This document shows, piece by piece, positions 1,062-29,527 of a stretch of DNA of 30,392 nt (position 1 is the first letter of the stretch; each line of letters opens with the position of its first letter). A model generated the notes under the pieces. It was not told the DNA's origin. It did no database searches and saw nothing but the letters and a program-made list of their open reading frames with translations. Source of the DNA: a virus; the IMG/VR virus record IMGVR_UViG_3300033571_025982, positions 1 through 30,392 of that record. One strand, 5' to 3'. A program made the translations under genes and the position numbers.

Positions 1062-1099
1062 CACCCGTTCGGCCCCAACCGAAAAGCACTCAAGTGCCG

Positions 1100-1128
1100 T
1101 TTACAGGTGCGGAAAGACCCGCTAAAGT
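1100..1128 (+). promoter_or_regulatory. Putative sigma70-type promoter
   Basis: TTTACA (1100-1105) and TAAAGT (1123-1128) are separated by exactly 17 bases. They match the bacterial -35 (5 of 6) and -10 (4 of 6) consensus. The site lies in the 93-base gap upstream of the glycosyltransferase gene, one of the few real gaps on the left side. It would drive the accessory operon that follows. Confidence 0.5.
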
Positions 1129-1154
1129 AGTGGCTCCCCGACAGGAGTCATCAC

Positions 1155-2054: not shown

Positions 2055-2093
2055 CGCAATCGTGCACGGACGCACGAACGCGAAAGGATTCGC

Positions 2094-2738: not shown

Positions 2739-3271
2739 GTCACGCAGGCGATCCCGGCCCGGTCGGTGAACCCGGTTTAACGTTGCCGGCATTTCTGGAG
2801 TTGATAAACAACGATCTCCAGAACGAGTGGACCCATCTCAAGTTTTACTTGTACCACTCGGCGGCGATTACCGGCATGCACGCCACAGAATACCGCGAAT
2901 TTTTTACGGACGCAGCGAAAGGCGAGATGCTGCATGTGCAGGCGTTTCTGGACCGGCTATACGGGCTGAACTACCCCAACCCGACGCAGTCATCGGCGTC
3001 GTTTTCGACGTTTAGTAACGCCGAAGACGCGATCACGCACGCGATCGAACTGGAGATGCACGTTGTCGAGAACTACACGAAGCGGCTGCAACAACTCGAT
3101 CAGTTGTCTGCCGCGTTCCCGGTGACGGCGCGCTACCTCACCGTGTTCTATGAAGACCAACTCAAAGACAGTTACGAAGACGCCGAGCGCATGCGCCGCA
3201 TCATGGCGAACGACCTGCGGCAAATGCTGCGGAACACGCGTCACGATCCGTTCAAATTTTTAGGAAAGTGA
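2735..3271 (+). CDS. Ferritin-like four-helix-bundle protein
   Basis: Predicted diiron ferritin-like protein of 178 aa. Helix A carries E31 (QNEWTH), helix B the ExxH pair E64/H67 (GEMLH), helix C E105/E107/E112, and helix D E140 in FYEDQLKD. In bacterioferritin-type sites the last helix normally gives ExxH, but here residue 143 is Leu. The second His ligand therefore seems missing and the metal centre may be altered. Roles known for the fold include iron storage, oxidative-stress protection and diiron oxidation; which applies cannot be decided. The start overlaps the nuclease stop (ATGA), with AAGGAG upstream. The C-terminal tail after about residue 155 is basic. Confidence 0.75.
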   Translation: MSHAGDPGPVGEPGLTLPAFLELINNDLQNEWTHLKFYLYHSAAITGMHATEYREFFTDAAKGEMLHVQAFLDRLYGLNYPNPTQSSASFSTFSNAEDAITHAIELEMHVVENYTKRLQQLDQLSAAFPVTARYLTVFYEDQLKDSYEDAERMRRIMANDLRQMLRNTRHDPFKFLGK

Positions 3272-3276
3272 TCGAG

Positions 3277-3295
3277 AATATACCGTCGGTATATT
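3277..3295. terminator. Inverted repeat/hairpin after the ferritin-like gene
   Basis: Perfect 9-base arms AATATACCG and CGGTATATT around a single T, with a T-rich end (ATATTTT). As RNA it folds with a small loop and could be a weak intrinsic terminator. As DNA it is an operator-like palindrome. It sits 6 bases after the ferritin-like stop and before the tRNA, where a transcript boundary would be sensible. Strand and function are not decided. Confidence 0.45.
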
Positions 3296-3316
3296 TTGCG
3301 CTACGAAAGTAAAGTC

Positions 3317-3409
3317 ATGACGGAGATACTGTGGTGTGTCGCGGCCGTGTTGATGCTGCACCTGCTCACGAGTGACAGCGGCAATACGACAGACACGGGG
3401 CCAAGATGA
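3317..3409 (+). CDS. 30-aa small membrane peptide, hypothetical
   Basis: A short ORF starting MTEILWCVAAVLMLHLL, with a single hydrophobic segment (about residues 4-17) followed by a polar tail. Its TGA ends exactly one base before the tRNA-Asn gene. No strong ribosome-binding site precedes it (only AAAG-type sequence). It is listed because tiny one-helix proteins are a clear theme of this genome and it fills the gap neatly. Confidence 0.35.
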   Translation: MTEILWCVAAVLMLHLLTSDSGNTTDTGPR

Positions 3410-3481
3410 TGCCCGGTAGCACAATGGTAGTGCACGGCACTGTTAATGCTGGGGTTGTAAGTTCGAGTCTTACCCGGGCAG
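3410..3481 (+). tRNA. tRNA-Asn(GUU)
   Basis: A full cloverleaf can be drawn by hand. The acceptor stem is TGCCCGG/CCGGGCA with all 7 pairs. The D-stem is GCAC/GTGC with loop AATGGTA. The anticodon stem is CGGCA/TGCTG (one G-U) with loop CTGTTAA, giving anticodon GTT. The variable loop is GGGTT, and the T-stem GTAAG/CTTAC has loop TTCGAGT. The discriminator base is G at 3481 and CCA is not encoded. It is the only tRNA I found in the window. Phage tRNAs often supplement codon supply or replace cleaved host tRNAs. It sits 6 bases before the FkbM gene, so it may be processed from a longer transcript. Confidence 0.93.
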
Positions 3482-3487
3482 TTTACG

Positions 3488-4030
3488 ATGATTGTTGAAA
3501 TCGGCACCTGCGACTTCGAGACGTCCGCCGGCCTAGCCGACGGTTTGTTTATCGAACCGCTGAAGTATTATTTCGACCGGCTGCCTCCGTGCCGGAAGGA
3601 AAACGTGGCCGTGTCGAACTACACGGGCACGGTCGATATCTATTACGTCGACCCCGACGAGATTGCGCCGCGCAAACTCGACACGTGGCTGCGCGGCTGT
3701 AATTCTGTGGGCAAACCGCACAAGCATCATGCCGGTTTGCCCGCTGAGATTCTGCGCGCGGATACCGTACCGGTCGTCAGGATTAAAGCGCTGCTCGACA
3801 AGCACGGCATCGGCGAGATCGACTATTTAAAGATTGACACCGAAGGCCACGACGCGATTATTTTGAACGACTTTTTAGACACTTGCGCACAACGGCCGCG
3901 TGAGATATTTTTTGAGAATAACGGCCTCGTCCCGCTGCCGGACGCGCAAGCCTTAATGCAACGATTACAACACTGTGGTTACTCAATCCGCCGCGACGAC
4001 GGGGCTTGCTATGCAACGCGAATTGGCTGA
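3488..4030 (+). CDS. FkbM-family methyltransferase
   Basis: Predicted SAM-dependent methyltransferase of the FkbM family, which typically O-methylates sugars or small molecules. The N-terminal VEIGTCDFET corresponds to the SAM-binding glycine motif. EPLKYYFDRLP matches the acidic motif after strand 2. The family hallmark is clear in IDYLKIDTEGHDAIIL (around residues 114-129). At 180 aa it is a single intact domain. The start ATG lies 6 bases after the tRNA with no obvious Shine-Dalgarno in between, so initiation may depend on tRNA processing or be inefficient. With the upstream glycosyltransferase it suggests a glycan-modifying pair. Confidence 0.85.
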   Translation: MIVEIGTCDFETSAGLADGLFIEPLKYYFDRLPPCRKENVAVSNYTGTVDIYYVDPDEIAPRKLDTWLRGCNSVGKPHKHHAGLPAEILRADTVPVVRIKALLDKHGIGEIDYLKIDTEGHDAIILNDFLDTCAQRPREIFFENNGLVPLPDAQALMQRLQHCGYSIRRDDGACYATRIG

Positions 4031-4070
4031 ATTAGCCCAAGTTCTCACCGAAATCGACAGGAGCACTACG

Positions 4071-4280
4071 ATGGACCGCTTTGACCTTGAACAAGCGATT
4101 ATTGCCTGCGGCAACGTCGTCGACGATCTCGATATCGTGCTGGACGCCTTGACCGACGAATCTACGGATCGTGAGCGCGTGGCAAACGCCCTGATCGGCC
4201 TGCGCGAACTGCACGACCTGCGCTGCAAGAAGGCTTTTGATATCTTTTCCGGCATGATCCAAGCCGGCGCGATTGTCTAG
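4071..4280 (+). CDS. Small acidic helical protein, hypothetical
   Basis: A 69-aa product beginning MDRFDLEQAI, all-helical and acidic, with no recognised motif. The frame is open back to 3975, but AGGAG at 4059-4063 lies 7 bases before ATG 4071, which decides the start. Longer versions would overlap the methyltransferase gene. Function unknown. Confidence 0.7.
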   Translation: MDRFDLEQAIIACGNVVDDLDIVLDALTDESTDRERVANALIGLRELHDLRCKKAFDIFSGMIQAGAIV

Positions 4281-4285
4281 GTGGC

Positions 4286-4603
4286 ATGATGCCGCAAACG
4301 TCCCGCGAACTGGAAACAGAAGAACGTGCCCGGCTGGCTATGCTCGACGAGCAGGAGCAGCAGCGCGTTAGCGCGGAATGGTCGCGGCTATGGATACACA
4401 TCGGTGTGCTGTGGTTTGGTGGTTTTACCGCGTGGCACATCTGGCCCTATTTTCTTAATCCTGCAATGTGGCCGAAGACTCAGTACGCGCTGTGGCTAGT
4501 CGCGCATGTAGTCGGTTACGTTGGCGCTGTTCTTGGCGGTTTGCTGGCAATGGCGTTACTCGCCACTGGCGGCAAAATCTTTGAACATGACCGGGATAAT
4601 TAA
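4286..4603 (+). CDS. Two-helix membrane protein, hypothetical
   Basis: A 105-aa protein with a charged N-terminal helix rich in Glu/Arg/Gln (residues 5-30) and two hydrophobic, Trp-rich segments (about 33-52 and 65-90), then a short charged tail. Two ATGs in a row (4286, 4289) follow TAGGTGG; the second has slightly better spacing. Likely inner-membrane. No family recognised; a holin-like role is possible but unsupported. Confidence 0.7.
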   Translation: MMPQTSRELETEERARLAMLDEQEQQRVSAEWSRLWIHIGVLWFGGFTAWHIWPYFLNPAMWPKTQYALWLVAHVVGYVGAVLGGLLAMALLATGGKIFEHDRDN

Positions 4604-4618
4604 ATAGGGAGGACAACT

Positions 4619-5095
4619 GTGGCGTACGCGCGTTTGATGGAACACATCTGGCAGACGATTGAGTCCGTGCAGTACGCCGACGTGAACGGCGACACAGGTA
4701 ACCGCGCCGGTTTACCGTGGTACGAAAGTTCGCATGACTGCTTTATGCAGGATTTGTTCGGCTGGCTCGACGTGCTGACCGAAGAGGTGGGTTTGACGCC
4801 CGTGTACGTCGACACCGACAACGCCACGCCATGGCACGTGCAATTTTCTTTTATGCTTCCGCCGGACGATATGACGTGGGAAGAGATTGAAGAAGAGCCG
4901 AGCATGTTGACCGAAGCCAACGGGTGCCAGCGGCTTTACGTCGACGTCTACCCATACTTCTGTGCGTACGAAGTCGTCGTGCGGCGCAACAAAGTCGAAG
5001 TTGGCGAAGAGGCGGAAGGTGATGAGATATGGGAGATTTCCGACCGATTCGCTGACGCTTTGAACACACACTTTGACGCAGAGGAGCAGTTGTAG
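4619..5095 (+). CDS. Acidic soluble protein, hypothetical
   Basis: A 158-aa acidic protein rich in Asp/Glu, Tyr and Trp, with no membrane segment. The GTG start is well supported by AGGGAGG at 4606-4612, 6 bases upstream. The strand-rich middle (VQFSFMLPPDD, YVDVYPYFCAYEVVV) suggests an alpha/beta fold. I do not recognise the family. The acidity would fit a DNA-mimic or inhibitor protein, but that is only a thought. It lies between two membrane-protein genes in the same operon. Confidence 0.75.
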   Translation: MAYARLMEHIWQTIESVQYADVNGDTGNRAGLPWYESSHDCFMQDLFGWLDVLTEEVGLTPVYVDTDNATPWHVQFSFMLPPDDMTWEEIEEEPSMLTEANGCQRLYVDVYPYFCAYEVVVRRNKVEVGEEAEGDEIWEISDRFADALNTHFDAEEQL

Positions 5096-5097
5096 TC

Positions 5098-5358
5098 ATG
5101 GAAGAATTTAACTGGTCCACAGCGGCGACGGTATTTGTCGTCTATGTCTTTTTTGACATTCTCTATGCGTTGTACGTGCTGTGTGTCAGCCGGCAGCAAG
5201 CGTGGCGTGCCAGCGCCATCAGCGCCGCGCTGTACAGTCTGGGCGCGTACGGCGTGATGAGTTACCTGCACAACCCATGGTACTTGATCCCGTTGGCCTG
5301 CGGCGCGTTTATCGGGACGTATATCGCTGTTAAGTACATGGGCAACTGGCACGCATGA
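5098..5358 (+). CDS. Three-helix membrane protein, hypothetical
   Basis: An 86-aa protein with three hydrophobic segments (about residues 7-28, 38-57, 61-79). The last ends in the Gly-rich FIGTYIAVKYMG. GAGGAG precedes the ATG. Its stop overlaps the deaminase start as ATGA, so the two are translationally coupled. Function unknown. Confidence 0.75.
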   Translation: MEEFNWSTAATVFVVYVFFDILYALYVLCVSRQQAWRASAISAALYSLGAYGVMSYLHNPWYLIPLACGAFIGTYIAVKYMGNWHA

Positions 5359-6139: not shown

Positions 6140-6499
6140 ATGACTACGTATGCATTCTTTATTGGTGGCATTATCGCTGGCGTTTTTGCTGGTTATCTAT
6201 GTGCGCGCCTTGACTATATTTACGTTCGGCTCCGAGAGTGGCACGAAGGAGCAAGTCAACTCCCCCAAGCCACTGGATTTTTCGCGCAAAGAATGGAACG
6301 AACCGCCAAGCGCCCCGCCAGCGAAACCCAAGCGCAAGCCGTCGCCGAAAAAATCGACATCGACACGCGCACGGTCGTCACAGAAATCAGCACGAAAGAC
6401 ATCCAAAAAGGCTCCGAAGTAGAACTCGGCACGACGACCGCGAAACAAGACAAAATTAACGAGTCGGTTTCTCGGCTGGCACAACTCAAGGGGAAGTGA
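6140..6499 (+). CDS. Membrane-anchored small protein, hypothetical
   Basis: A 119-aa protein with an N-terminal transmembrane helix (about residues 4-24, with GG and AG small-residue motifs), then a polar, Gln/Glu/Thr-rich stretch and a Lys-ending tail. GGAGG at 6131-6135 stands 4 bases before the ATG. Its TGA overlaps the ATG of the next gene (TGATG at 6497-6501), favouring this frame as the real one. A second ORF in the +1 frame (6150-6422) lies inside it. The single N-terminal helix with a polar domain could suit a spanin-like protein, but no firm signature is present. Confidence 0.65.
   Translation: MTTYAFFIGGIIAGVFAGYLCARLDYIYVRLREWHEGASQLPQATGFFAQRMERTAKRPASETQAQAVAEKIDIDTRTVVTEISTKDIQKGSEVELGTTTAKQDKINESVSRLAQLKGK
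6150..6422 (+). CDS. Overlapping +1-frame ORF with signal-anchor and basic tail
   Basis: A 90-aa ORF fully embedded in the 6140 gene. It begins with a strongly hydrophobic segment (MHSLLVALSLAFLLVIYV) and continues into a Pro/Lys/Ser-rich, very basic tail. Codons look as orderly as in the host frame. GGAGGAG at 6131-6137 is 12 bases upstream, which is long. The layout recalls Rz/Rz1 spanin overlaps (+1 frame, Pro-rich partner), but there is no lipobox cysteine. It may equally be a chance shadow of a membrane-protein frame. Confidence 0.3.
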   Translation: MHSLLVALSLAFLLVIYVRALTIFTFGSESGTKEQVNSPKPLDFSRKEWNEPPSAPPAKPKRKPSPKKSTSTRARSSQKSARKTSKKAPK

Positions 6500-6609
6500 T
6501 GAGTTTCTGGGACAAATGGTCGAAAAAGAAAGTCAAAAAAGCCTGTCGCAAACTCAAAGAGCAGGCAAAGTACATTCAGAAACTTGAAAAGAAACTGAAG
6601 CAGAAATGA
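6499..6609 (+). CDS. 36-aa Lys-rich coiled-coil peptide
   Basis: MSFWDKWSKKKVKKAC followed by a short amphipathic, Lys/Leu-rich helix (residues 17-36). It starts in the stop codon of the preceding gene (TGATG) with a GGGGAAG site just upstream. Its own TGA overlaps the ATG of the next gene (ATGA). Both overlaps strongly suggest real translation despite the size. It is highly basic, so it may bind nucleic acid or membrane; unknown. Confidence 0.6.
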   Translation: MSFWDKWSKKKVKKACRKLKEQAKYIQKLEKKLKQK

Positions 6610-6749
6610 GCGTCCCGTTACTGTTCTTTGTCGCGATTATTTACGCGTATGTCGCAGTCGAGCAGGGATACAAAGGCAACACGCCCGGGTTTTTTATCTG
6701 GGCTAGTTATTGCTGCGCCAACGTCGCGCTCATGTGGAACACGAAATAG
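6606..6749 (+). CDS. 47-aa membrane peptide, hypothetical
   Basis: Begins MSVPLLFFVAIIYAYVAVEQ, with one clear hydrophobic helix (residues 3-18), a Gly-rich turn and a second aromatic, weakly hydrophobic segment containing two adjacent cysteines (about residues 29-45). It overlaps the upstream gene by ATGA and ends 9 bases before the actin-like gene. No family recognised. Confidence 0.6.
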   Translation: MSVPLLFFVAIIYAYVAVEQGYKGNTPGFFIWASYCCANVALMWNTK

Positions 6750-18705: not shown

Positions 18706-19734
18706 ATGGGCTACGCAGAAGACGGCAAAGAAATCTTTAACAATGTCCTGTTAGGCACCGGCGTCGGGGCTTCGGCCACCGGGCTGTACTACTTGGCCAA
18801 GAAACTGCGGAAGCGCTTTGAAGATCAGTTGGCGCGCAGCAAGCCCGTAACGCCCGACTACAATGACGTCGCGCTTGATACGCCTGAATTACTGCCGGCT
18901 CCTGAGCAAAAGAAATTGGCTTTTGACGCGTATACGGTTGCGGCGCCGGCTGTTGGCGGCGCGGCTGGTGCGATCTTGGCGTCTGCGTTGTCGGACGAGA
19001 AGACGAAGAAGCGGAATGCGTTGCTGGGCGGGCTTGCAGGTGCTGGCGTGGGCGCGGGTTTAAACACCAAGCCTGTTCACGAGTTTTTGGGCAAGAACAC
19101 GCCGCGCTCGTATCTCCCGTTTTTGGAGCCGATCTTAGGTAAGCCGCTTTTTAATCGCGGTTCTGGATATACCGGCTGGAACGCGATGATGAACGCTGGC
19201 GGCGCTGGTCTCGGCGTGCTGGGCGGAAAGACGCTTTACGATATGGCCGCTGAGCCGTACGCCGAAGCCGAGAAGAAAAAAGAACAATATGACAACGTTG
19301 AGTCCGCTCGCCGGCAGTATTTTGATGAGTTGCTGAAGGACGACGACAAAGATAGCAAAAAAGAGAAGAAGTCCTCGGTTACCGACATGCTCGATCAAGC
19401 CTATGACGTGTATACCGAAAAGAAAGCCGACTGGTCGGATTATCTCCGCTACGTTGATCCGTCTCGTTTGCCTATCCTTAAGTCCATTTTTCACGACTTG
19501 CCCAACATGTACGGCGTGGCAGCCGCTGGCGCGACGCTCGGCGGCGGCCTGATCGGCGGCAAATACATGTATGACAAGACCATGGCCGCGTCCTCAGCGA
19601 AGAATCTGGCCAAGGCTCTGGCGGCCAAGGATCGCATGAAAGACACAATGCCAGTCTGGATTGATCCGCAGGAATTAGCGCAGGTCAAAGACGTGGCTGC
19701 CACGAAAGAACCGCATGACGACCAAGGGGTGTGA
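18706..19734 (+). CDS. Gly/Ala-rich putative membrane-associated virion protein
   Basis: A 342-aa protein with alternating charged and Gly/Ala-rich hydrophobic blocks: about 10-28, 75-115, 150-175 and 265-285. A Lys/Asp/Glu-rich, probably coiled-coil region (190-235) lies between them. Several segments could insert in a membrane. No catalytic motif is visible. Its TGA overlaps the region of the RNA-polymerase start, so the polymerase is made from the same message. The layout matches the proteins at 11491 and 17827, suggesting an injected or internal virion protein (inference). Confidence 0.7.
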   Translation: MGYAEDGKEIFNNVLLGTGVGASATGLYYLAKKLRKRFEDQLARSKPVTPDYNDVALDTPELLPAPEQKKLAFDAYTVAAPAVGGAAGAILASALSDEKTKKRNALLGGLAGAGVGAGLNTKPVHEFLGKNTPRSYLPFLEPILGKPLFNRGSGYTGWNAMMNAGGAGLGVLGGKTLYDMAAEPYAEAEKKKEQYDNVESARRQYFDELLKDDDKDSKKEKKSSVTDMLDQAYDVYTEKKADWSDYLRYVDPSRLPILKSIFHDLPNMYGVAAAGATLGGGLIGGKYMYDKTMAASSAKNLAKALAAKDRMKDTMPVWIDPQELAQVKDVAATKEPHDDQGV

Positions 19735-19736
19735 CC

Positions 19737-22700
19737 ATGTCCGACCCCTTGCCGCCGCTGAAACCGCAGACAGTTCCGGCTCTTCCGCCTCTTGCTCCTC
19801 CGCAGCAACAGACCCGCGCATTCGGCGATATTAACGCCCTGCGCGATAACATCTTTAACGAGGCGCTGCGTTCTGCGTCAGGCATTGAGCCGATCCAGAA
19901 CGATCTTTACACCCTTAAACTCACGAACGTGGGTTACGCGGGGCCTGAGCGCTATTCGCGTAAAGATCAAAAGAAGGCTGTATTAACTCGCGGCACACTT
20001 GCCCGAAAGTTAACGGGCACGTGGACTTTAATAGAAAATGGCTCGGAAAAGCCTGTCGCTTCGCGACAGGCTACGATAGCAAATGTGCCATATCTGACCG
20101 ACTCAGGTACGTTTGTAAACAAAGGTGTCGAATACACGCTGGCACATCAACTGCGACTCAGGCCGGGCGTGTTCACGCGCGAGAAAGATAACGGCGAACT
20201 GGAATCGCACGTTAACACGCTGCCCGGCAAAGGCCGCTCGCACCGTTATTACATGGACCCCAAAACCGGCGAGTTTCAAATCCAGATCGGGCAGGCTAAG
20301 ATTCCGCTCATGCCGCTGCTGAAGACACTCGGCGTGCAAGAAAAGCAGATACGGGAAGCGTGGGGCAACGAGATCGCCGCCGTAAACATGCAGAAAGGCG
20401 ACGCCGGCACGCTGGATAAACTTTACAGCCGGCTCGTATTTAAGCCAGACCCGGCAGCGGACCAGTTAGCCAAGATCAAGGCTATCGCCGCGGAGTTTGC
20501 CAAGACGGAGTTGGACGAAGAGGTTACGAAGCGCACGTTGGGCACGCCGTACAAGAATCTGACGCCAGACGCCATTCTGGACATCACCAAAAAACTTATC
20601 GCGGTCAATCGCAAGGAAGCCGAAAGCGACGACCGCGATAGCATGACGTTCCAGCAAGTCTTTGGCCCGGAAGATTTGATATCGGAACGGTTCGTGAAAG
20701 ACAAGTCGGCCCTGCGGCAGTTGCTCTGGAAAGCCACCGCGAAGAAGACGCTGGACCACATCCCCAGCGGCATCTTTAACAAGTCGATCACCGCGGCGCT
20801 CATTGGCTCGGGATTGGGGTCGAGCCTCGAAGAAATCAACCCGGCTGAAATTTTTGACCACCAGACGCGCGTGACCCGGCTCGGCGAAGGCGGCATCGGC
20901 TCGCTGGACGCCGTGCCGGCGGAGTCGCGCAGCGTGCAGCCCAGCCACTTCGGCTTTATCGACTATCTCCGCACGCCGGAGTCTGGCAAGGTGGGCGTAG
21001 ACATGCGCTTCGCTGCCGGGGCGCGCAAGTTGGGCAACAACCTGCACACGTTTGTGGTGCCCGTCAAGAACGCCAACACCGGCGAGACGGAGTACAAGAC
21101 GCCGCAAGAACTGGCGGACATGCCGCTCATGTTCCCGGGCGAGGACAAGTCGGACCTGCCGATGGTCGCGGCGCTTGTAAACGGCAAGATTAAGTACGTG
21201 CCGCGCAAAGACGCGCAGTACACCGTTCCGAACATGGACAACACGTTTTCGTCGCTGACCAACATGGTGCCGATGAAAAGCATGGTAAAAGGCCAGCGCG
21301 TCATCATGGGTAGCCGTATGTTTACGCAGGCGCTCCCGCTCGAAAACGCTGAGTCGCCGTTCGTGCAATCCGCCAAGTTCGACGGTGACGGAAGCGTTTC
21401 GCACGAAGACGAGATGGGCGAAAAGTTAGGCGCAATTAAATCCCAAGTCGGCGGGCAAGTTGTCGCAGTCACGCCAGACGAGATGATCATTCGCGACAAG
21501 GACGGCCAGAAGCACACGATCGACTTATACAACGACATGCCGTTCAATCGGAAGACGTTCTGGACGCAGACGCCGACGGTAAAGCCCGGCGATGTCGTGA
21601 AGCCCGGCCAACTGATCGCTACCAGTAACTTTACTGATAAAGGCGGCGCGGCTGCGCTGGGTTTAAATTTGCGCGTGGGCTATACGCCGTTCCGCGGGCG
21701 CAACTACGAAGACGCCGTTGTGATATCTGAATCGGCTGCCAAGAAACTCACCAGCCAGCACATGTATCAGCACGAAGCCGAGTGGGATGACAACACCCAC
21801 GTCGGCAAGAAGGCTTTCGTCAGTTTGTTTCCCAGCGAGTACGACAAAAAGATGCTGGAGAACTTTGACGATAACGGCGCAATCAAAAAAGGCACGATCG
21901 TCAATTTTGGCGACCCGCTGGTGCTCGTCGCCAAGAAGCGCGATCAGGTTTACGGCAAAGTACACCGCGGCCGGGCGGGCGCGTTCGCGAACGAGACGAT
22001 GACGTGGGAGCATCACTCGCCGGGCGTCGTGACTGACGTGGAGCACACCAAGAAGGGCGTGTCCGTCGTCGTGAAGTCGAAGTCGCAGATGGAGGTCGGC
22101 GACAAGATTACCGGCCGCTTCGGCGACAAGGGCGTTGTGTCGGAGATTGTTCCTGACAATCAGATGCCGCAAGACGGGCAAGGCCGGCCGCTCGAAATTC
22201 TTGTCAGCCCGCTCGGCTTAATTAATCGCGTAAACCCTGCGCAGATCATCGAAGCCGCGTTGGGCAAAGTTTCTGAAAAGACTGGCCAGCCGTTCAAGAT
22301 CAAAGACTTCGATAACGATAACGATCTGGTCGAGATGGCCGCCGCGGAGTTGGCCAAGCACGGGCTGACAGACACTGAAGACCTGATTGACCCAGAAACT
22401 GGCCGCAAGATTCGTGGCGTGCTGACCGGCAACCGTTTCTTTATGAAACTGCACCACACGGCTGAGTCTAAAGGTCAGGGGCGGTCGATCGGCGGGTATA
22501 CGGCTGAAGGCACGCCCGCCAAGGGCGGCAGCGAAGGCGCTAAGCGCGTCGGCATGCTGGAACTGGGCGCGCTTTTGTCTCACGGCGCCGGCAAGGTTGT
22601 GCGCGACGCCAAGATGGTACGCGGCCAAGCCAACCCCGAATACTGGACGCAGTTCATGGCCGGGTATGACCCGCCGCTGCCGAAGGTGCCGCACGTGTAC

Positions 22701-24161
22701 GAGAAGTTTGTCAATCAACTTCGCGGCGCTGGCGTAAACGCTGTGCGCACCGGCTCGAAGACGCACATCATGGCGTTGACTGACAAGAACGTCGAAGAGT
22801 TAGCCGGCGATCGCGAGATTCAGAACGCCGAGACCGTCGACTGGAAGGGCAACCTGAAGCCGGTTAAAGGCGGGCTGTTCGACGAGACGCTGACTGGCGG
22901 TCACAACGGCAATCGTTGGTCAAAAATAACATTACACGAGCCGATGCCGAACCCGATCATGGAAGAGCCGATTCGGCGAACGCTAGGCTTGACCGAAAAG
23001 AAGTTCCGCGCCGTGCTCGCCGGTCAAGAGAAGTTGGGCAACAAGACCGGACCAACAGCGATTCACGAAGCGTTAAAGTCTGTGAACCTTCCGCGCGCAA
23101 TCGAGCAAGCGCGCGCAGACATCAAATCTGGTCGCAAGACGTTGCGCGACGCGGCCGTGCGCCGGCTCGCGTTTTTGAAGGGCGCAGAAGCCACTGGCGT
23201 CCATCCGAAAGACTGGATGCAAACCAAGGTCGGCGTGCTGCCGCCAGCGTTCCGCCCAGTCTCGACGATGGGCGCGAAGAAGATGCAACTTATCGACGAC
23301 GCTAACTATCTGTACAAAGAACTGCTTGAGTCGAACAACGTGCTGAAGGAAGCCTCTGGCCTGCTTTCCGACGTCGGCGGCGAGCGGTTGTCGTTATACG
23401 ACTCGATGAAGGCGGTGTCCGGCCTTGGCGATCCGCAACACCCGAAGAACGTCGAACGGAACGTGCGCGGTTTCTTGTCAAAGATATTTGGTGACAGTCC
23501 GAAGTTTGGCACGATGCAGCGCAAACTGCTGTCGAGCACTGTGGACCTTGTCGGCCGGGCCGTAATCTCGCCCAACCCGGACCTCGACATGGACGAGGTA
23601 GCCCTGCCAGAAGACAAAGCGTGGGACATTTACAAGCCGTTTGTCGTCCGCGGGCTGATCAGGCGCGGCATGCCGCGAATGAACGCGATGCGGGCAGTCG
23701 AAGAGCGCAACAAAGAAGCGTTTGCCGAATTAAACACGCAAATGAACGCGAAGCCCATCGTCATTAACCGCGCGCCCGTTCTACACCGGTACGGCGTTAT
23801 GGCGTTTTATCCGCGGTTAACAAAAAACAAGGTCATGGAAGTAAACCCGGTTATCACAAAAGGCTTCGGGGCCGATTTCGACGGCGACGCGATGCAGTAC
23901 CACGTGCCCAGCACCGAAGAAGCCGCCAAGGAAGCCGTCGAAAAGATGCTGCCCAGCAAAAACCTTTTCGCAGCGTCTAACTTCAAAGCCCATTATGTAC
24001 CAAACAAAGACTACCAGACTGGTGTATACTTAGCCTCAAGCAAGGTTAACAACAAATCTAAGCCGCGCGTTTACCGCACGAAAAAAGACGCCCTCGCCGC
24101 CTACCGACGGGGCGATATCGACGTGGACACGCCGGTACACATTGTGGAAGATAAGGCCTGA
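19737..24161 (+). CDS. RNA polymerase beta subunit fused to N-terminal half of beta-prime
   Basis: A 1474-aa large subunit of a cellular-type RNA polymerase. The beta part (about 1-1020) has the fork/rifampicin-pocket region (N368-P-A-E-I-F-D-H375 to LGEGG), NYEDAVVISE (656-665) and GDKITGRFGDKG (788-799, with active-site lysines K790 and K798). It ends with the clamp-entry helix GMLELGALLSHGAG. The beta-prime part (about 1030-1474) starts with GGLFDETLTGG, carries NRAPVLHR (1344-1351) and the catalytic DFDGD (D1380, D1382, D1384 for Mg), and stops soon after. The N-terminal zinc-binding domain of beta-prime is replaced by a short link (GGHNGNRWSKITLHEP). I find no cysteine in the whole chain. 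ATG 19737 has AAGGGG 7 bases upstream; the GTG at 19731 is not needed. The rest of beta-prime is encoded from 25137. It probably transcribes phage genes. Confidence 0.95.
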   Translation: MSDPLPPLKPQTVPALPPLAPPQQQTRAFGDINALRDNIFNEALRSASGIEPIQNDLYTLKLTNVGYAGPERYSRKDQKKAVLTRGTLARKLTGTWTLIENGSEKPVASRQATIANVPYLTDSGTFVNKGVEYTLAHQLRLRPGVFTREKDNGELESHVNTLPGKGRSHRYYMDPKTGEFQIQIGQAKIPLMPLLKTLGVQEKQIREAWGNEIAAVNMQKGDAGTLDKLYSRLVFKPDPAADQLAKIKAIAAEFAKTELDEEVTKRTLGTPYKNLTPDAILDITKKLIAVNRKEAESDDRDSMTFQQVFGPEDLISERFVKDKSALRQLLWKATAKKTLDHIPSGIFNKSITAALIGSGLGSSLEEINPAEIFDHQTRVTRLGEGGIGSLDAVPAESRSVQPSHFGFIDYLRTPESGKVGVDMRFAAGARKLGNNLHTFVVPVKNANTGETEYKTPQELADMPLMFPGEDKSDLPMVAALVNGKIKYVPRKDAQYTVPNMDNTFSSLTNMVPMKSMVKGQRVIMGSRMFTQALPLENAESPFVQSAKFDGDGSVSHEDEMGEKLGAIKSQVGGQVVAVTPDEMIIRDKDGQKHTIDLYNDMPFNRKTFWTQTPTVKPGDVVKPGQLIATSNFTDKGGAAALGLNLRVGYTPFRGRNYEDAVVISESAAKKLTSQHMYQHEAEWDDNTHVGKKAFVSLFPSEYDKKMLENFDDNGAIKKGTIVNFGDPLVLVAKKRDQVYGKVHRGRAGAFANETMTWEHHSPGVVTDVEHTKKGVSVVVKSKSQMEVGDKITGRFGDKGVVSEIVPDNQMPQDGQGRPLEILVSPLGLINRVNPAQIIEAALGKVSEKTGQPFKIKDFDNDNDLVEMAAAELAKHGLTDTEDLIDPETGRKIRGVLTGNRFFMKLHHTAESKGQGRSIGGYTAEGTPAKGGSEGAKRVGMLELGALLSHGAGKVVRDAKMVRGQANPEYWTQFMAGYDPPLPKVPHVYEKFVNQLRGAGVNAVRTGSKTHIMALTDKNVEELAGDREIQNAETVDWKGNLKPVKGGLFDETLTGGHNGNRWSKITLHEPMPNPIMEEPIRRTLGLTEKKFRAVLAGQEKLGNKTGPTAIHEALKSVNLPRAIEQARADIKSGRKTLRDAAVRRLAFLKGAEATGVHPKDWMQTKVGVLPPAFRPVSTMGAKKMQLIDDANYLYKELLESNNVLKEASGLLSDVGGERLSLYDSMKAVSGLGDPQHPKNVERNVRGFLSKIFGDSPKFGTMQRKLLSSTVDLVGRAVISPNPDLDMDEVALPEDKAWDIYKPFVVRGLIRRGMPRMNAMRAVEERNKEAFAELNTQMNAKPIVINRAPVLHRYGVMAFYPRLTKNKVMEVNPVITKGFGADFDGDAMQYHVPSTEEAAKEAVEKMLPSKNLFAASNFKAHYVPNKDYQTGVYLASSKVNNKSKPRVYRTKKDALAAYRRGDIDVDTPVHIVEDKA
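20050..20072. repeat. Long perfect inverted repeat within the polymerase gene
   Basis: AGCCTGTCGC and GCGACAGGCT are separated by TTC: a 10-bp GC-rich stem with a 3-base loop about 315 bases into the gene, encoding part of an E-K-P-V-A-S-R-Q-A segment. No T-tract follows. As RNA it is very stable and could act on elongation, RNA processing or translation; as DNA it could be a binding site. Confidence 0.85.
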
Positions 24162-24181
24162 TTGTTTACATGGAGGTAAAT

Positions 24182-24925
24182 ATGTCCTACACGGTAAATC
24201 CGGAACTGCTGGCGCTTGCGAGCCGCCGGGTATTTGAAAAGTCGGCGGTTGTGCCGCCGCAGGGCGGCCAAATGGGCGCTGATCAGTCCCAGCAGGTCGG
24301 CATGCCTCCCATGACTCCTGACGCGCTTGGCGCGCAACAGCCCGTTGATCCGGCGCAGGCTGCCGCCGCCGCGGGTGGTGGCGCTCCTCCGGCTGCCGCT
24401 CCTCCGGGCATGATGGACCCGTCGATGCTTGGCGCGCTTCCGCCGGCTACTCCGCAAGCCGCCGGTCCTGCCGGCGCCGGTGCTGGTCAGAAGTTAAAGC
24501 CAGAACAAATGATGCAGATGCTTGACTACCGGCTGTACAACATGCAGCAGCAACTCACCGCGATCATGAACGCGATGGGCGTGCAGGTTGCGCCTGAGTC
24601 GCTTGTACTTCCTCCCGGCACAACCGGCGCCCCGCCGGCCGAAACCGCGCTCCCCGGTGGTCCGATGGCGCCGCCTCCGGCCCCGGCAGGCGGTCCTCAA
24701 GCGCCGGGCGGCCCGCTGCCTCCCGGAGGTCCGCTGCCTCCCGGCGCGCCGCCGGCTGATCCGGCTGCTGCTGGCAAGCAGGCGAACTGGTGGGAGCGCG
24801 TCGAGCAGCACGCTGTTTCGCGTGTTGGTCAGCCCGTTGCCGCTGAGATTTTGAACATTGATCTTCAAGCAAAAGTCAGCGCAGCGAAAGCGTTGCACCG
24901 GAGTTTGACGGACAATGCTCGTTAA
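24182..24925 (+). CDS. Pro/Gly/Ala-rich protein between the two polymerase genes
   Basis: A 247-aa protein. GGAGG (24172-24176) before ATG 24182 fixes the start; an ATG at 24170 overlaps the ribosome site. It begins with a short helix ending FEKSAVVPP. Long low-complexity Pro/Gly/Ala stretches follow, including tandem G-P-L-P-P-G units at about 180-190. One amphipathic Met/Gln-rich helix lies in the middle (about 103-128: PEQMMQMLDYRLYNMQQQL). A C-terminal helical segment (205-247) ends it. It has no RNA-polymerase motif, so it interrupts the beta-prime coding order. Likely disordered with helical binding elements, perhaps a scaffold or virion linker (inference). Confidence 0.75.
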   Translation: MSYTVNPELLALASRRVFEKSAVVPPQGGQMGADQSQQVGMPPMTPDALGAQQPVDPAQAAAAAGGGAPPAAAPPGMMDPSMLGALPPATPQAAGPAGAGAGQKLKPEQMMQMLDYRLYNMQQQLTAIMNAMGVQVAPESLVLPPGTTGAPPAETALPGGPMAPPPAPAGGPQAPGGPLPPGGPLPPGAPPADPAAAGKQANWWERVEQHAVSRVGQPVAAEILNIDLQAKVSAAKALHRSLTDNAR

Positions 24926-25130
24926 AACGCAGCACAACTTAATTCCTGCCGACCAAAAAGCCCATAGCGTCGTGATCGAAGACGATTTGGGTAATCCAAT
25001 TTTTGTCGCTACGCACCTTGTAGACGGCATTTTGTACTCGGCAGTTGGGGATAGTGATTTCAAAACCGTACTCAACATGGTCGGCCTCAACAACGCGCCG
25101 ACCGTACGAGAACTTGTTCCGCCGAAATGA
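24915..25130 (+). CDS. Small beta-rich protein between polymerase genes, hypothetical
   Basis: A 71-aa protein overlapping the preceding gene by 11 bases. It is strand-rich (SVVIEDDLGNPIFVATHLVDG) with a Pro/Lys end, and ends 6 bases before the GTG of the beta-prime C-terminal gene. No cysteine or known motif. Its position invites a role as an omega-like or assembly factor of the polymerase, but nothing in the sequence shows that. Confidence 0.65.
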   Translation: MLVKTQHNLIPADQKAHSVVIEDDLGNPIFVATHLVDGILYSAVGDSDFKTVLNMVGLNNAPTVRELVPPK

Positions 25131-25136
25131 CTTGCC

Positions 25137-27077
25137 GTGTTAAAAACTACCCTTGGCCAGTTAATGATCAACGAAGCCCTTCCGGACGACATGCGTGATT
25201 ACGAACGCGTGTTGGACAAGAAGGCTATGGGCGCGTTGGCCACCGATCTAGCAAAAAAATACCCTGACCGGTACCGCGAGGTGATGAAGAAGATTCACGA
25301 TGTTTCCCGCGACGTGGCGTACACCACGGGTGGGTTGTCGATGGGGCTGAAAGACATTCGGCCGACGTTTGCGAGCCGCCACGCGCAAATCAAAGTCCGC
25401 AAAGAACTGCGTCAAATTCTTGCGGACACTAACCTCTCGGACAAAGAGCGCGAGTTAAAAATTCTGAAACTTGCGGCTGAAACGCAGCAGAAACTTGTTG
25501 AAGACGTGTTTAACGAGGCTCGCGACGCCAACAACCCGCTTGCGCACCAAGTGCTGGCCGGCGCCACGGGCAACAAGTTTATGTTGAACTCGCTGATTGG
25601 CGCTGACATGCAATATGTCGACCATCGTGATAACCCAATCCCGCTGCCGGTGCTGCGGAGTTACAGTCGCGGCTTGACGCCGGCTGAATACTTCGCGGCA
25701 TCGTTCGGTACGCGTAAGGGCGTGATTGACGTGAAGACCGCCACCGCTGACGCCGGTTTTTATGGCAAGCAACTTACGCAGATGGCGCACCGCCTCCTTG
25801 TCACCGCGGATGACGACGATGACGAAGCGCGGCTGGTAACGGCGCACAACCGCGGCCTGCCGTCCGACGTTGACGACCCGGATAACGAAGGGTCGTTTTT
25901 GGCGCGACCTGTCGGCCCGTACAAGCGCAACACGGTACTCACGCCCAAAATTCTCAAAGACATCAAGGCGATGGGCGTTAAAGATATTTTAGTGCGCAGT
26001 CCGCTGGTCGGCGGTCCGGAGGATGGCGGCGTATACGCGAAAGACGTCGGCTATCGCGAAAAGGGCCGCGTGCCACCCGTTGGTGATTACGTCGGCATTG
26101 CGGCTGCGCAAGCGCTGTCTGAGCCGGTGTCGCAGTCGCAGTTGTCGTCGAAGCACTCGGGTGGCGTAGGCGGGGCAAAGTCGATTGGCGGCTTCAAGGC
26201 TATTAACGCGCTTGTGCAAGTTCCACGACGTTACCCCGACGGCGCTACGCACACGCAGCGCGAAGGCCGCGTGCAAGAAATTCGCCCAGCCGCGCAGGGC
26301 GGCTTTTACGTCACCGTTGACGGTGAAGATCACTACGTCCCGGCAGACCGACAAGTGAGCGTCAAGAAAGGCGACGCACTGGAAGCCGGCGACGTACTGT
26401 CAGACGGCATGCCCAACCCCGCCGAGATTGTTAAACACAAAGGCGTCGGTGAAGGGCGTAAGTACTTCGTGCAAGCCATGCGGCAAGTGCTTGGTAATTC
26501 CGGCATCACAGCCCACCGGCGTAACATCGAACTAGTGGCGCGCGGGCTGATCAACCACGTCAGGCTGAACGACGAATACGGCGACTACGCCCCAGACGAC
26601 GTTATTCCATATTCAATGCTGGAACGGTCGTGGAAGCCGCGTTCGGGCGCTGTGGCATCTGCGCCGAATACGCTTATGAATCATTATCTGGAAGAACCGG
26701 TCTTGCACTATTCGATCGGCACAAAAATAACTAAAAGCGTCGCGGACAACTTGAAAAAGTACGGCATAAACAATATTCAGGCCCATAAAGAGCCGCCGCC
26801 CTTCGAGTCCGAGATGGTGCGCGGCATGGCCAACATTTCAAACGATCCTGACTGGATGACGCGTATGCTGGGGTCGTATCAAGAACGTGGATTTTTAAAC
26901 AGTGTTCACCGCGGGTTGAAGAGCGATACCGAAGGTAGCAGTTACGTGCCTGCGCTCGCGCGGGGCGAGCAATTTGGCGTTTCTGGCGCGACAAGTGGGT
27001 GGAAAACTGAATCTAACCCCCAAAAAGCCTTTCAAACCCCCGCAAGTCCGCTAGGCTCCGAGCCAAGAACACTGTAA
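25137..27077 (+). CDS. RNA polymerase beta-prime subunit, C-terminal half
   Basis: A 646-aa protein continuing beta-prime where the fused protein at 19737 stops. The start TTLGQLMINEALPDD matches the TTxGR...P-G-L-P segment that follows the catalytic domain in bacterial beta-prime. The bridge helix region is AEYFAASFGTRKGVIDVKTATADAG (residues about 183-207; usual pattern F-x-x-x-H-G-A-R-K-G). The trigger-loop region is YVGIAAAQALSEP (318-330), then SQLSSKHSGGVGG (334-346). The usual Q-L-T-M-R-T-F-H is changed here. A long insertion follows and then the C-terminal clamp region (VARGLINHVRL). No cysteine is present, so the second zinc site is also lost. GTG start 25137 has no clear ribosome site; coupling from the upstream gene is likely. 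The last about 30 residues are Pro/Ser/Thr-rich. Confidence 0.93.
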   Translation: MLKTTLGQLMINEALPDDMRDYERVLDKKAMGALATDLAKKYPDRYREVMKKIHDVSRDVAYTTGGLSMGLKDIRPTFASRHAQIKVRKELRQILADTNLSDKERELKILKLAAETQQKLVEDVFNEARDANNPLAHQVLAGATGNKFMLNSLIGADMQYVDHRDNPIPLPVLRSYSRGLTPAEYFAASFGTRKGVIDVKTATADAGFYGKQLTQMAHRLLVTADDDDDEARLVTAHNRGLPSDVDDPDNEGSFLARPVGPYKRNTVLTPKILKDIKAMGVKDILVRSPLVGGPEDGGVYAKDVGYREKGRVPPVGDYVGIAAAQALSEPVSQSQLSSKHSGGVGGAKSIGGFKAINALVQVPRRYPDGATHTQREGRVQEIRPAAQGGFYVTVDGEDHYVPADRQVSVKKGDALEAGDVLSDGMPNPAEIVKHKGVGEGRKYFVQAMRQVLGNSGITAHRRNIELVARGLINHVRLNDEYGDYAPDDVIPYSMLERSWKPRSGAVASAPNTLMNHYLEEPVLHYSIGTKITKSVADNLKKYGINNIQAHKEPPPFESEMVRGMANISNDPDWMTRMLGSYQERGFLNSVHRGLKSDTEGSSYVPALARGEQFGVSGATSGWKTESNPQKAFQTPASPLGSEPRTL

Positions 27078-27124
27078 ATTAGTAGAGTTGTTAGTTTATT
27101 GTCTGCCGCATGGAGGTGGCGCCT

Positions 27125-29527
27125 GTGTACAACAAAAAGACTAAAGAAGCATCGTGGAAGCATTGGTTAAACGTCGTCCGGTCCTATGACCGTACCCAGA
27201 CCAAGGTTGCCGAAATCGGCGGCCGAGGCGACGACATGGCGTTTGAGCAGGCGTTTTCAAACCTCGCTCACGCCTATCTCCGCGATGGCGCGCCCAAGTT
27301 AATGGATCACGAGATCGGGTTCCAACTCCTCGACCGAAACCGAGAAAACACCAAGGCTGTTGGCGTTTTTGCGTTTAAGGTTGGGTCGATGTGGTTGTAC
27401 GCGCCCGTATTCTTCCTCAACGGCGACCTCAAGGGGCACGAACTCCTGTATATCAAGAATCAGGACATGTTCGTGCCGCTCAAGGAAAACTGGGTCAATT
27501 ACCTCATTAATCGCAAGCCCAGCATTCTCGGCAGCGGTATCGACAAGAACCTGACGCAGTTTGGCCAGCGCCAACCCGATTTTACGCAGTTGTCACGGTC
27601 TCCGGCCAAGTTCGGTTCGGCGCAGCCCACGCTCAAGGAAATGATGACCGCCGTGCTGCCGACACTGGCGAAGACGGCAACCATGAACACCAAATTGGCT
27701 TTTGAAGAGTTGGGCCACAAGTTAAATCTCAAGGCGTTTCTGAAGCAAGCCGGCATGGAGACTATTGCCGCGCTTGTTAAAACCTGCCAGTTTGCACCAC
27801 ACCTCGCCGAGGCGATCGACGAGTTTCACGGTTTAGATATTATTAGCGAGGCAATCGGTACGGCGAAGGCCCGTGAGGCCGCCGCGAACCACAAGGTCGC
27901 GAGCGTGTTGTCCGAAGCGCCCGAAAAACCCAAGGCTATGGCCACGCTGAAGGTCATCACGTACGACGCGACGATGCAGACGGCGCTCCCGCCGGGCTAC
28001 ACCGAAGAGGACCAAGAAAAGTTGCTGCGCGACGGGATTCTGATCAAAGACATCCGCGACCGCGACAACGTGTCTGTCCCCTACAACATTCAGGTCGAGA
28101 AGAAGTTATTCAATCCGACCGAAAGCGGCCTGTACATGGTGCTCGTCAAGCCGGGCGACGTGGAAAAGTGCTATATCGCTGTCTACCCGATGGGGCCGAG
28201 CAAGCGCAGCGACTTTGTCACCGTCGTCCGCACGGAAGGCAAGCCGGAGTGGATCAACACCCGCGCCGACCACGTGTTCTGTCTGAGCCGTGTTGAAGGC
28301 GACGAGTTTGATTCGTGGTACAACGGCCTTTCCGACGCCAACAGTGTGTCGAAGAGCGGCCGTTACATGGCGATTCACAAGAACGGCGACACGACTGTCC
28401 CGTTCCGCGTTATTCGCGAATACGGCGAGACTGAGTTTGGCGGCAACGCTTACGAAGTCCACATGGAAGACCATTCCAAATTCCCGCCCAAGGGTTCAAT
28501 CTCTCCCTGCTGCTACACCGACCCGCTGAACTACGACAAGTACCGCGACGGCGTGCGCATTCACCTGAACGGAAAGGGAGGCTCGAAACTTCGCTTCAGC
28601 ATGGGCGACATCTTTGTGCCCGAAGGGTACAAGTTGTTGAAGTGCGCGCCGGGCGAAGACGACGCCGAAACGGCTGACGGGCAAGACGCTTGCGGCTGCG
28701 GCGAAAGCGCCAATCCGCCGCTGATGCCGGGCAACCTTGCTGACGCGCAACTCTCGCTGATGCAGAAACTCGGCAGCGTGACGATTTATCACAACGGCAC
28801 GGCAGTCGAGATTCACAGTCCGAAGAAGCAACTCATTGAAAAAGAGTTGTCGGAAAAGAATGCTTTGGCGTCGCTTGTTGCACGTCATGGCCTGCGTGAA
28901 GACGCAGCCCGCACGTTACTGGCCAACGCCAAAGCCCGCCGCAAGTTTGCGTGCCACATCAAGTACGCCGACCCGTACGGCAGCCCGATGATGATTAACA
29001 ACGCGCCCAGCGCGCCGGCTGATCCCGGCCCGGTCATGGGCGGCGAAACCATTATGGGCACCAGCGTTCCGACACAACTCGGCATCGACGTCGGCGCGCC
29101 GGTTCCCGGCATGTCCGCAAGCCAGACTGACCGCAGCGTTTACAATCCGAACACGCAATTGGATCAGAAGTCGATCCAGCACGTGCTCGGTGCGGCGCAG
29201 AGCGGTCAGCGCGAGGTATTCGACACCGCCATGATCGGCACGATGTTGCGCGCCGTGCGCGACGATGGTCTCGTTGACCGGTACATGGGCGAACTGACCA
29301 AGGGCCTCGACAAGTTGGGCCGCATCCTGTTCATGTTCTACTGGCACGGCGACCGGTTTGCCGATCGTTACGGCAAAGCCGACATGCCGGAACTGGAAGA
29401 CTCGCTCCGCAACGCGTTTGAAATGTTGGGCGACGTAATTCTGTTCCTCAAGCAAAAGACAATTGAACCGTATCCGGAAGAGGAAGCGCAAGACGTTGAT
29501 CTCGCCGCTACCGCTGGAGCCTCGTAA
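27125..29527 (+). CDS. Large conserved-looking phage protein, probable virion component
   Basis: An 800-aa protein. GTG 27125 is chosen over ATG 27110 because GGAGGT (27112-27117) sits 7 bases before it. The N-terminal region has FEQAFSNLAHAYLRDGAPKL, LDRNRENTKAVGVF and FFLNGDLKGHELLY, which look like a conserved structural domain I recall only vaguely from large-phage genomes. The middle carries alpha/beta segments with two adjacent Cys (462-463) and a C507, C523, C525 cluster around an acidic loop. The C-terminus (about 640-800) is helical and acidic. There are no clear enzyme motifs. Its position between the polymerase and tail-fibre-like genes suggests a virion role, possibly portal or internal protein; undecided. 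Confidence 0.7.
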   Translation: MYNKKTKEASWKHWLNVVRSYDRTQTKVAEIGGRGDDMAFEQAFSNLAHAYLRDGAPKLMDHEIGFQLLDRNRENTKAVGVFAFKVGSMWLYAPVFFLNGDLKGHELLYIKNQDMFVPLKENWVNYLINRKPSILGSGIDKNLTQFGQRQPDFTQLSRSPAKFGSAQPTLKEMMTAVLPTLAKTATMNTKLAFEELGHKLNLKAFLKQAGMETIAALVKTCQFAPHLAEAIDEFHGLDIISEAIGTAKAREAAANHKVASVLSEAPEKPKAMATLKVITYDATMQTALPPGYTEEDQEKLLRDGILIKDIRDRDNVSVPYNIQVEKKLFNPTESGLYMVLVKPGDVEKCYIAVYPMGPSKRSDFVTVVRTEGKPEWINTRADHVFCLSRVEGDEFDSWYNGLSDANSVSKSGRYMAIHKNGDTTVPFRVIREYGETEFGGNAYEVHMEDHSKFPPKGSISPCCYTDPLNYDKYRDGVRIHLNGKGGSKLRFSMGDIFVPEGYKLLKCAPGEDDAETADGQDACGCGESANPPLMPGNLADAQLSLMQKLGSVTIYHNGTAVEIHSPKKQLIEKELSEKNALASLVARHGLREDAARTLLANAKARRKFACHIKYADPYGSPMMINNAPSAPADPGPVMGGETIMGTSVPTQLGIDVGAPVPGMSASQTDRSVYNPNTQLDQKSIQHVLGAAQSGQREVFDTAMIGTMLRAVRDDGLVDRYMGELTKGLDKLGRILFMFYWHGDRFADRYGKADMPELEDSLRNAFEMLGDVILFLKQKTIEPYPEEEAQDVDLAATAGAS

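Follow-up and report, generated by a model that had tools for sequence, protein, structure and literature searches.

We analysed a 30,392-base stretch of viral DNA, the IMG/VR virus record IMGVR_UViG_3300033571_025982 (hereafter the window), and found that it carries two genes for a conserved two-chain RNA polymerase (RNAP). The first gene encodes an intact beta subunit fused to the N-terminal part of beta' (beta'N), and the second encodes the C-terminal part of beta' (beta'C). This split is one state of a modular RNAP family, borne mostly by uncultured phages, whose members consist of one, two or three chains. The two genes probably specify a single cellular-type, two-barrel RNAP made of two chains, which would be produced late, packaged into the virion and injected to transcribe early genes.

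The fused chain carries both catalytic barrels

Both genes lie on the plus strand. The fused beta-beta'N gene (19731..24161, 1476 amino acids) begins with a GTG at 19731 that overlaps the end of the upstream gene, and an ATG at 19737 is an alternative start. We placed the boundary between its two parts at ALTDKN, with beta at 19731..22772 (about residues 1-1014) and beta'N at 22773..24158 (about residues 1015-1476), ending in ..DTPVHIVEDKA. Along this chain the Pfam families align in the order Rpb2_2 (E-value 0.042, a weak match), Rpb2_3, Rpb2_6 (2e-49), Rpb1_1 (2e-4, under the curated cut-off) and Rpb1_2 (7e-24), and the motifs NYEDAVVISE, GDKITGRFGDKG, NRAPVLHR and GADFDGD start at residues 658, 790, 1346 and 1380, respectively. 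Both the double-psi beta-barrel (DPBB) of beta (PF00562, 2e-49) and that of beta' (PF00623, 7e-24, with the catalytic DFDGD motif at residues 1382-1386, 23874..23888) are found on this single chain.

The beta'C gene (25137..27077) encodes 646 amino acids with the N-terminus (M)LKTTLGQ and matches PF04998 (Rpb1_5, 4e-22). Its bridge helix region (25680..25787), with KGVIDVKTATADAGF, corresponds to a helix at residues 182-217 of the predicted model, and its trigger helices and loop (26091..26219; EPVSQSQLSSKHSGG) correspond to model helices 319-340 and 347-361. When the PDB was searched by sequence, the fused chain matched bacterial beta within residues ~77-1023 and bacterial beta' within ~1079-1472, and the beta'C profile matched E. 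coli beta' from residue 572 onward. The beta lysines K792 (GDK) and K800 (GDKG) are invariant in 38 of 38 aligned relatives, as are all three aspartates of DFDGD (38 of 38 rows, the F nearly so), and the trigger-loop residues K339 and H340 of beta'C are invariant in 42 of 42 rows.

A preliminary description of this DNA had reported beta motifs running into beta' motifs in one open reading frame (ORF) and the second half of beta' as a separate gene. Both points are borne out by the profile searches, in which the Pfam beta and beta' families match the two chains in the expected order. It had also held that two polypeptides must assemble to make an active site. This stands in so far as the bridge helix and trigger loop are on the second chain; however, both barrels, the DFDGD motif and the beta lysines are all on the first, indicating that the second chain would complete the active centre and supplies no barrel.

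Conservation of the layout and of the seam

Similarity searches with the window proteins gave 35 and 69 related loci, and four cultured phages with matches in two separate genes came from a tblastn search of a phage collection: Salmonella phage Arash and Vibrio phages D69, D181 and D148. Our scan took in 79 distinct records, of which 75 are IMG/VR contigs and the others are the window, Arash, D69 and D181. These records were found by similarity and are not independent, as they include the window itself, its phage a second time in a 198-kb contig (L017, 100% identical; L numbers are our labels for contigs and loci) and near-duplicates; at 92% identity, their ORFs collapse to 38 fused and 41 beta'C representatives. 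Family sizes given here are lower bounds, one locus search having taken the best 80 of 168.

The two halves of beta' are in separate ORFs in all 74 records in which both are visible, and beta and beta'N share one ORF in all 72 records in which beta is visible as well, including the isolates Arash, D69 and D181. Beta itself is interrupted in three of these 72 (L093, L105 and L108). The cultured phages Arash (Gp206 and Gp216), D69 and D181 have the same fused beta-beta'N and separate beta'C genes, and D148 shows this layout from tblastn matches alone. The distance from the fused gene to beta'C ranges from 638 to 5255 nucleotides across records; in Arash it is 4.7 kb, with genes on both strands in between.

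The cut falls between ..VHIVE and (M)LKTTLGQ, corresponding to about residues 550-572 of E. coli beta' (numbering corrected by us for 14 residues preceding the annotated start). Most members of the window's branch have a beta'N that stops a few residues after ..TPVHIVE and a beta'C that begins with (M)LKTTLGQ. The end of beta'N lies 0-6 residues past the last aligned residue in 74 contigs, and the beta'C start codon is at residue 1 or one before in 70 of 72. These tight ends and start codons leave no room for a split intein and point to separate translation of the second gene.

These data bear on two ways in which the break could be apparent only. One is that a frameshift, misassembly or sequencing error has disrupted a single gene. 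A frameshift is able to mimic a split, and L093 looks damaged, with beta and beta'C each in two ORFs. However, the halves are separate in 74 of 74 records, independently sequenced isolates among them, and homologues of both small genes of the window's gap lie between the halves in 52 of the 74; the Arash gap has genes in both orientations, and unique peptides have been reported for each of the two Arash halves, which are annotated as two genes. We therefore give an artefact practically no weight, and a sequencing error at 24161, the origin that the preliminary description had named as fatal to its reading, is ruled out by the conserved layout. The other is that the halves are rejoined after expression into one long chain, through an intron in the gap or a split intein. 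Relatives do carry group I introns (L108, L204) and full intein-like inserts in their RNAP genes, and uncut beta-beta' chains exist among them. Yet an Rfam search of 23900-25400 gave no match up to E = 1, although the same library detected group I introns in two of four relatives searched (in D181 and L204, none in L105 and L206); 0-6 residues after beta'N are too short for an intein fragment, with the beta'C start codon at the seam; and the gap varies in length and, in Arash, contains genes of both orientations. We reject an intron there on the Rfam result and a split intein on the seam ends and start codons, so that rejoining is very improbable.

The group I introns themselves are at 6431-6711 and 2634-2841 in L108 (Vibrio phage D181) and at 11536-11817 in L204. 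In both, such an intron breaks up the beta part of the fused gene, the second D181 intron lying upstream, and homing endonuclease genes adjoin the D181 introns. Intein-like inserts of ~330-390 amino acids (785 for a tandem pair), with an N-terminal Cys and a C-terminal ..SN/S or ..GN/S, were seen in L087 (1365-4499), L092 (7826-10915), L097 (2-3553 and 5519-12280), the beta of L023/L032 and L076/L101, and L341. Their sites are conserved in RNAP, namely the trigger loop (AQAL/SEP, SSKH/SGG), the start of the bridge helix, and LRTPE/SGK and HHTAE/SKG in beta; LAGLIDADG_3 matches were present in all three insert-bearing proteins scanned.

Partner subunits and evidence for packaging

We searched 13 records for partner subunits and detected neither alpha (PF01193, 0 of 13) nor omega (PF01192, 0 of 13), an absence that is no proof since virus records may be incomplete; the same searches were positive in 13 and 14 of 14 control genomes. 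Each of the 13 records has one beta gene (PF00562; in G010 as three pieces of one interrupted gene), a count that a far-diverged second set could escape. Sigma70 region 2 was found in one of 11 window-branch, four of four Arash-branch, one of six full-fusion and none of two separate-subunit records.

For Arash, the composition of the particles has been published. Gp206 was the most detected protein, with 3516 spectra and 128 unique peptides, Gp216 was fifth with 1210 spectra, and the sigma factor Gp10 and the helicase Gp217 gave 467 and 1148 spectra (PMC10585845). The authors name Gp206 beta and Gp216 beta', and the words 'fused', 'fusion' and 'split' are absent from their paper (PMC10585845); our tblastn and ORF scan identify Gp206 as beta-beta'N, and the label 'beta' conceals half of beta'. 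Per residue, the spectra amount to 2.31 for Gp206, 2.00 for Gp216, 2.00 for Gp10 and 2.43 for Gp217, compared with 4.34 for the capsid, 1.78 for Gp4, 1.51 for the portal and 1.43 for the tail protein. These crude values fit near-equal amounts of the two RNAP chains and sigma, without singling them out. Moreover, the Arash RNAP genes adjoin the portal and other virion genes. The detection of the Arash chains in virions, together with the undetected alpha and omega in 13 records, suggests by analogy that the RNAP of the window's phage is a virion RNA polymerase, a role that the preliminary description had left out of account.

The amino acid composition of the enzyme is unusual as well. The window RNAP has no cysteine in 2122 residues, whereas the composition of the window's other genes (81 in 7186 residues, 1.1%) would predict 23.9. 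Among relatives, 0-1 cysteines were counted in each of 38 fused-core rows and none in 40 of 42 beta'C rows, the other two (Arash and D69) having four. There are 4-13 in seven one-chain loci and 5-7 in four Arash-branch loci, compared with 30-35 in each of five separate-subunit phage RNAPs and 16-26 in four bacterial beta and beta' pairs. Several window genes near the RNAP also lack cysteine. Such depletion would fit a protein that resides in the virion and leaves it.

Proposed mechanism

We propose that the first chain would provide both DPBBs with the Mg-binding aspartates and the beta lysines, and the second the bridge helix, trigger loop, jaw and C-terminal clamp. As no phage alpha or omega was found, the covalent beta-beta' fusion may stand in for the assembly work that alpha and omega perform in bacteria. 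The cut falls on a natural seam, with the strand that follows the beta' barrel on one side and the TTxGR strand on the other; since uncut relatives mostly have only 1-5 linker residues at this point, the two chains could fold and dock as one. The enzyme is most likely made late within a structural gene block, packaged and injected, and would then transcribe early phage genes. In the Arash branch it would draw on a sigma of the phage for this; in the window's branch, either the host sigma or some unrecognised factor would serve. That the two chains assemble into an active enzyme is likewise something we infer.

The folds of the RNAP parts are supported by predicted models. In Foldseek searches, the beta'C model matched bacterial beta' chains (best E-value 2e-23) and the fused-core model matched beta chains (2e-39), among the matches listed.

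A number of observations weigh against this proposal. The AlphaFold models are single-chain predictions, of moderate confidence for beta'C (predicted local distance difference test (pLDDT) 73.8, predicted template modelling score (pTM) 0.58) and lower for the 1168-residue fused core (66.4 and 0.41). Foldseek template modelling (TM) scores by query length were 0.34-0.45 with a large root-mean-square deviation, and the 50 matches listed for the fused core were all beta chains, so the models lend no support to a two-barrel assembly. The trigger loop lacks the M-R pair that is present in the aligned bacterial chain. A loose ribosome-binding motif precedes beta'C in only 40 of 72 contigs, and none is evident at 25137. 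Sigma70 region 2 was detected in just one of the 11 window-branch records. As for packaging, identity between the Arash and window chains is only 32% for chain 1 and 25% for chain 2, and the crude per-residue counts, with other virion proteins in a similar range, are no proof of 1:1 complexes. The Arash authors themselves allowed that the enzymes may have been carried over when the cells were lysed after infection, and the particles yielded 116 proteins, including ribonucleotide reductase and primase (PMC10585845).

Carry-over would be expected if the RNAP were a non-virion enzyme for middle or late genes that contaminated the Arash preparation. In keeping with this, other replication enzymes were detected too, and only one beta gene was found per record, in contrast to the separate virion and non-virion enzymes of phiKZ-type phages. 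On the other hand, Gp206 has the top spectral count, Gp206, Gp216 and Gp10 are similar per residue, the genes adjoin those of virion proteins, and cysteine is almost absent here and not in the five separate-subunit phage RNAPs. Hence we consider a non-virion role unlikely, and the enzyme is probably carried in the virion.

One-, two- and three-chain forms and the direction of evolution

A scan for NADFDGDQM-coding DNA gave at least 120 stretches, which were searched with profiles together with loci found later. Beta, beta'N and beta'C were found in a single ORF at at least 20 loci on at least 17 contigs. Among the matches listed, the one-chain forms that are complete and without large inserts measure 2062-2199 amino acids from stop to stop. 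Between the halves of the one-chain forms, 16 of 17 contigs have a linker of 1-5 residues, and L320, a divergent partial form, has one of 17. A search with a 2531-residue one-chain protein matched its own contig only. A three-piece form is present at at least 10 loci of the Arash branch (L205, L206, L208-L210, L213, L215-L217 and L220), in which beta plus the first ~90 positions of beta'N are followed by the rest of beta'N and then by beta'C; among the matches listed, beta'C lies outside the locus in four of the 10.

Contigs with separate subunits (beta' ~905 and beta ~1010 amino acids) also occur. L233, L252, L284, L301 and others carry the short beta' (~905) followed by beta (~1010), the reverse of the bacterial order, and are perhaps mReC phages. 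Seven separate-subunit contigs carry two RNAP sets each (L229+L255, L240+L271, L245+L328, L266+L337, L301+L315, L306+L324 and L333+L340), a short type with beta' of ~900 amino acids and a long type with beta' of ~1000 and beta of up to ~1390, resembling a virion and non-virion pair. In L360, rpoB and rpoC stand beside ribosomal protein genes, and L359 and L362 have ordinary bacterial-type beta and beta' ORFs; these three records of the phage collection look like host DNA.

We then built a concatenated tree from 59 of 198 loci, which remained when the loci had been filtered at 55% domain coverage and clustered by identity, with 30 of the 59 in a bootstrapped tree. The coverage filter dropped the separate-subunit contigs, which were placed in a tree of beta and beta'N only (29 of 47 kept). 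The outgroup of the concatenated tree was four bacteria and one unannotated record, and a wider outgroup comprised twelve bacteria. All split forms were monophyletic (FastTree Shimodaira-Hasegawa (SH) support 1.0 with 59 loci; IQ-TREE 100/100 with 30 loci), the full fusions were weakly so (0.87 and 61.7/79), and the three-piece forms nested inside the Arash branch. The beta-beta' fusion is common to all branches of the family.

We put forward tentatively a more specific account, which is quite possible but falls short of probable: a separate phage lineage fused beta and beta' into a chain of ~2,100 residues and re-cut it at domain seams, once to give the two-piece form and, in one branch, twice to give the three-piece form, and its enzyme would be a high-copy virion holoenzyme, free of alpha and omega, with beta-beta'N, beta'C and sigma at about 1:1:1. 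The reverse direction, in which the family started out split and the one-chain forms arose when the pieces fused again, is possible too but rather less likely. Approximately unbiased (AU) tests of the concatenation tolerate trees that place the full-fusion group with one split group (two alternative rootings, p 0.088 and 0.099; with the wider outgroup, 0.51 and 0.24), and beta plus beta'N alone slightly, non-significantly, prefers the tree uniting the Arash branch with the full fusions. However, the best concatenated trees unite all split forms, beta'C with the small outgroup rejects the Arash plus full-fusion grouping (p 0.001, though p 0.54 with the wide outgroup), and beta' is uncut in the bacterial outgroup records used. 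With twelve bacterial outgroups no rooting was excluded; the cut may have come once after the fusion, twice at the same seam, or before the fusion.

Comparison with known RNA polymerases

The preliminary description had set this arrangement apart from phiKZ-type enzymes and from full rpoB-rpoC fusions, and we found the same: beta of the window is intact and fused, not in two or more chains as in phiKZ, and its chain holds only part of beta', unlike a bacterial full fusion. The arrangement differs from both, as had been claimed, but it is not peculiar to this phage, given dozens of contigs, cultured phages and uncut or three-piece relatives. The nearest cultured comparison, Arash, differs from the window in that beta'C is 4.7 kb away, genes on both strands intervene and a sigma factor is present.

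The phiKZ/AR9-type RNAPs resemble the window enzyme in having no alpha or omega, a beta' cut after the DPBB-A barrel and a known virion form; they differ in a beta that is split and unfused to beta' and in having no recognisable sigma, and they carry two enzymes per phage, against the single beta gene detected in each record searched here (PMC7598289). Their beta' cut is described as coinciding with the cyanobacterial one (PMC7598289). Cyanobacterial RNAP (gamma plus beta') is similarly cut soon after the catalytic barrel of beta', but its beta is separate, gamma extends ~70 residues beyond the end of phage beta'N, and the start of its beta' chain corresponds to about position 12-19 of phage beta'C. 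In our alignments, residue 10 of 8gzg_Z corresponds to beta'C position 22 and residue 5 of 8h3v_B to position 23. Judging from that start, the cyanobacterial cut lies slightly beyond the phage cut, probably after TTxGR, which presumably stays on gamma; phage beta'C, by comparison, begins with TTLGQ and is not cut downstream of this strand.

The mReC phages are alike in being tailed, with a readily alignable cellular-type RNAP near structural genes (Weinheimer and Aylward 2020, PMC7481178). In the text of that paper, 'fused' or 'fusion' is used solely for crAssphage and 'split' never. All eight mReC capsid proteins match PF07068 (PMC7481178), unlike the family of the window, in which none of 18 records (12 split, six full fusion) does; PF07068 was present in one of two separate-subunit records, the other being a 29-kb fragment. 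The mReC phages were selected by an NADxDGD motif in beta' (PMC7481178), and the window has GADFDGD instead. At window-branch loci the first motif residue is G in 136, N in 30 and A in 4 of 170 matches (not de-duplicated), so some relatives would pass the mReC motif criterion. In the beta and beta'N tree, which covered the loci collected here, the separate-subunit contigs that look like mReC form a clade apart from the window family.

The single-chain enzymes of crAss-like phi14:2 (gp66) and of P23-45 (gp64/gp96) also hold both barrels in one chain, and P23-45 gp96 is packaged (PMC10770324). They have been assigned to a second clade, in which the sequence has little in common with cellular RNAP except around DxDxD (PMC10770324), and in contrast to these and to YonO the window enzyme matches Pfam (2e-49 and 7e-24) and PDB sequences strongly along both chains. 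The same source mentions, without naming them, derivatives of the cellular clade in which DPBB domains are fused, and these could include such enzymes (PMC10770324). On these features we rejected identity with the mReC (by motif and capsid family), phiKZ, cyanobacterial and crAss enzymes.

The listings and passages that our searches of the open-licence literature brought up contain no description of a phage beta fused to half of beta', and an account elsewhere is possible. How an RNAP can be divided and yet assemble, and what alpha and omega serve for, are open questions that are addressed by a family in which the same enzyme comes in one-, two- and three-chain versions with seams in common, cultured isolates included. 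If the proposal is right, it provides a natural series of where a cellular-type RNAP tolerates joining and cutting, as well as a candidate virion polymerase whose sequence aligns easily with that of bacterial RNAP. Should packaging prove general in this family, injection of a near-bacterial RNAP would be a more common trait of phages than has been recognised.

Neighbouring genes and other observations

All four genes around the RNAP genes are on the plus strand. Two lie in the gap (24162-25136): a 251-residue Pro/Ala-rich protein (24170..24925), with a homologue between the RNAP genes in 53 of 74 records, and a 71-residue protein (24915..25130), with one in 54 of 74. The 251-residue protein has a conserved motif of ~33 residues (112-144) between Pro/Ala-rich tails and is possibly a small RNAP partner. 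Downstream, a conserved gene for 805 amino acids (27110..29527) has a homologue within 300 nucleotides of beta'C in 56 of 74 records; its product weakly matches Arash gp218 (E-value 2e-4 over ~90 residues), which was found in virions (PMC10585845). The upstream gene for 342 amino acids (18706..19734) overlaps the RNAP start, and as a similar ORF is present in only nine of 79 records it is not a conserved part of the layout.

Further away, the 655-residue product of a window gene at 9242 has NUDIX and weak portal matches, and PHROGs searches of the flanking window genes gained little. Neither PF07230 nor the capsid model PF07068 matched any of the 18 family records, and the two models therefore identify no capsid or portal in this lineage. 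In L083 (9914-14104), the beta'C ORF extends into AAA-kinase, acylphosphatase-like and DUF5661 matches (1397 amino acids). The family members L366 and L367 (47% and 45% identical) are on contigs binned with Thermoguttaceae and Methylococcales metagenome-assembled genomes, which are weak hints of hosts; the stretches of these contigs that were covered do not include beta'C. Finally, a tRNA-Asn (GTT) is located at 3410-3481 of the window.

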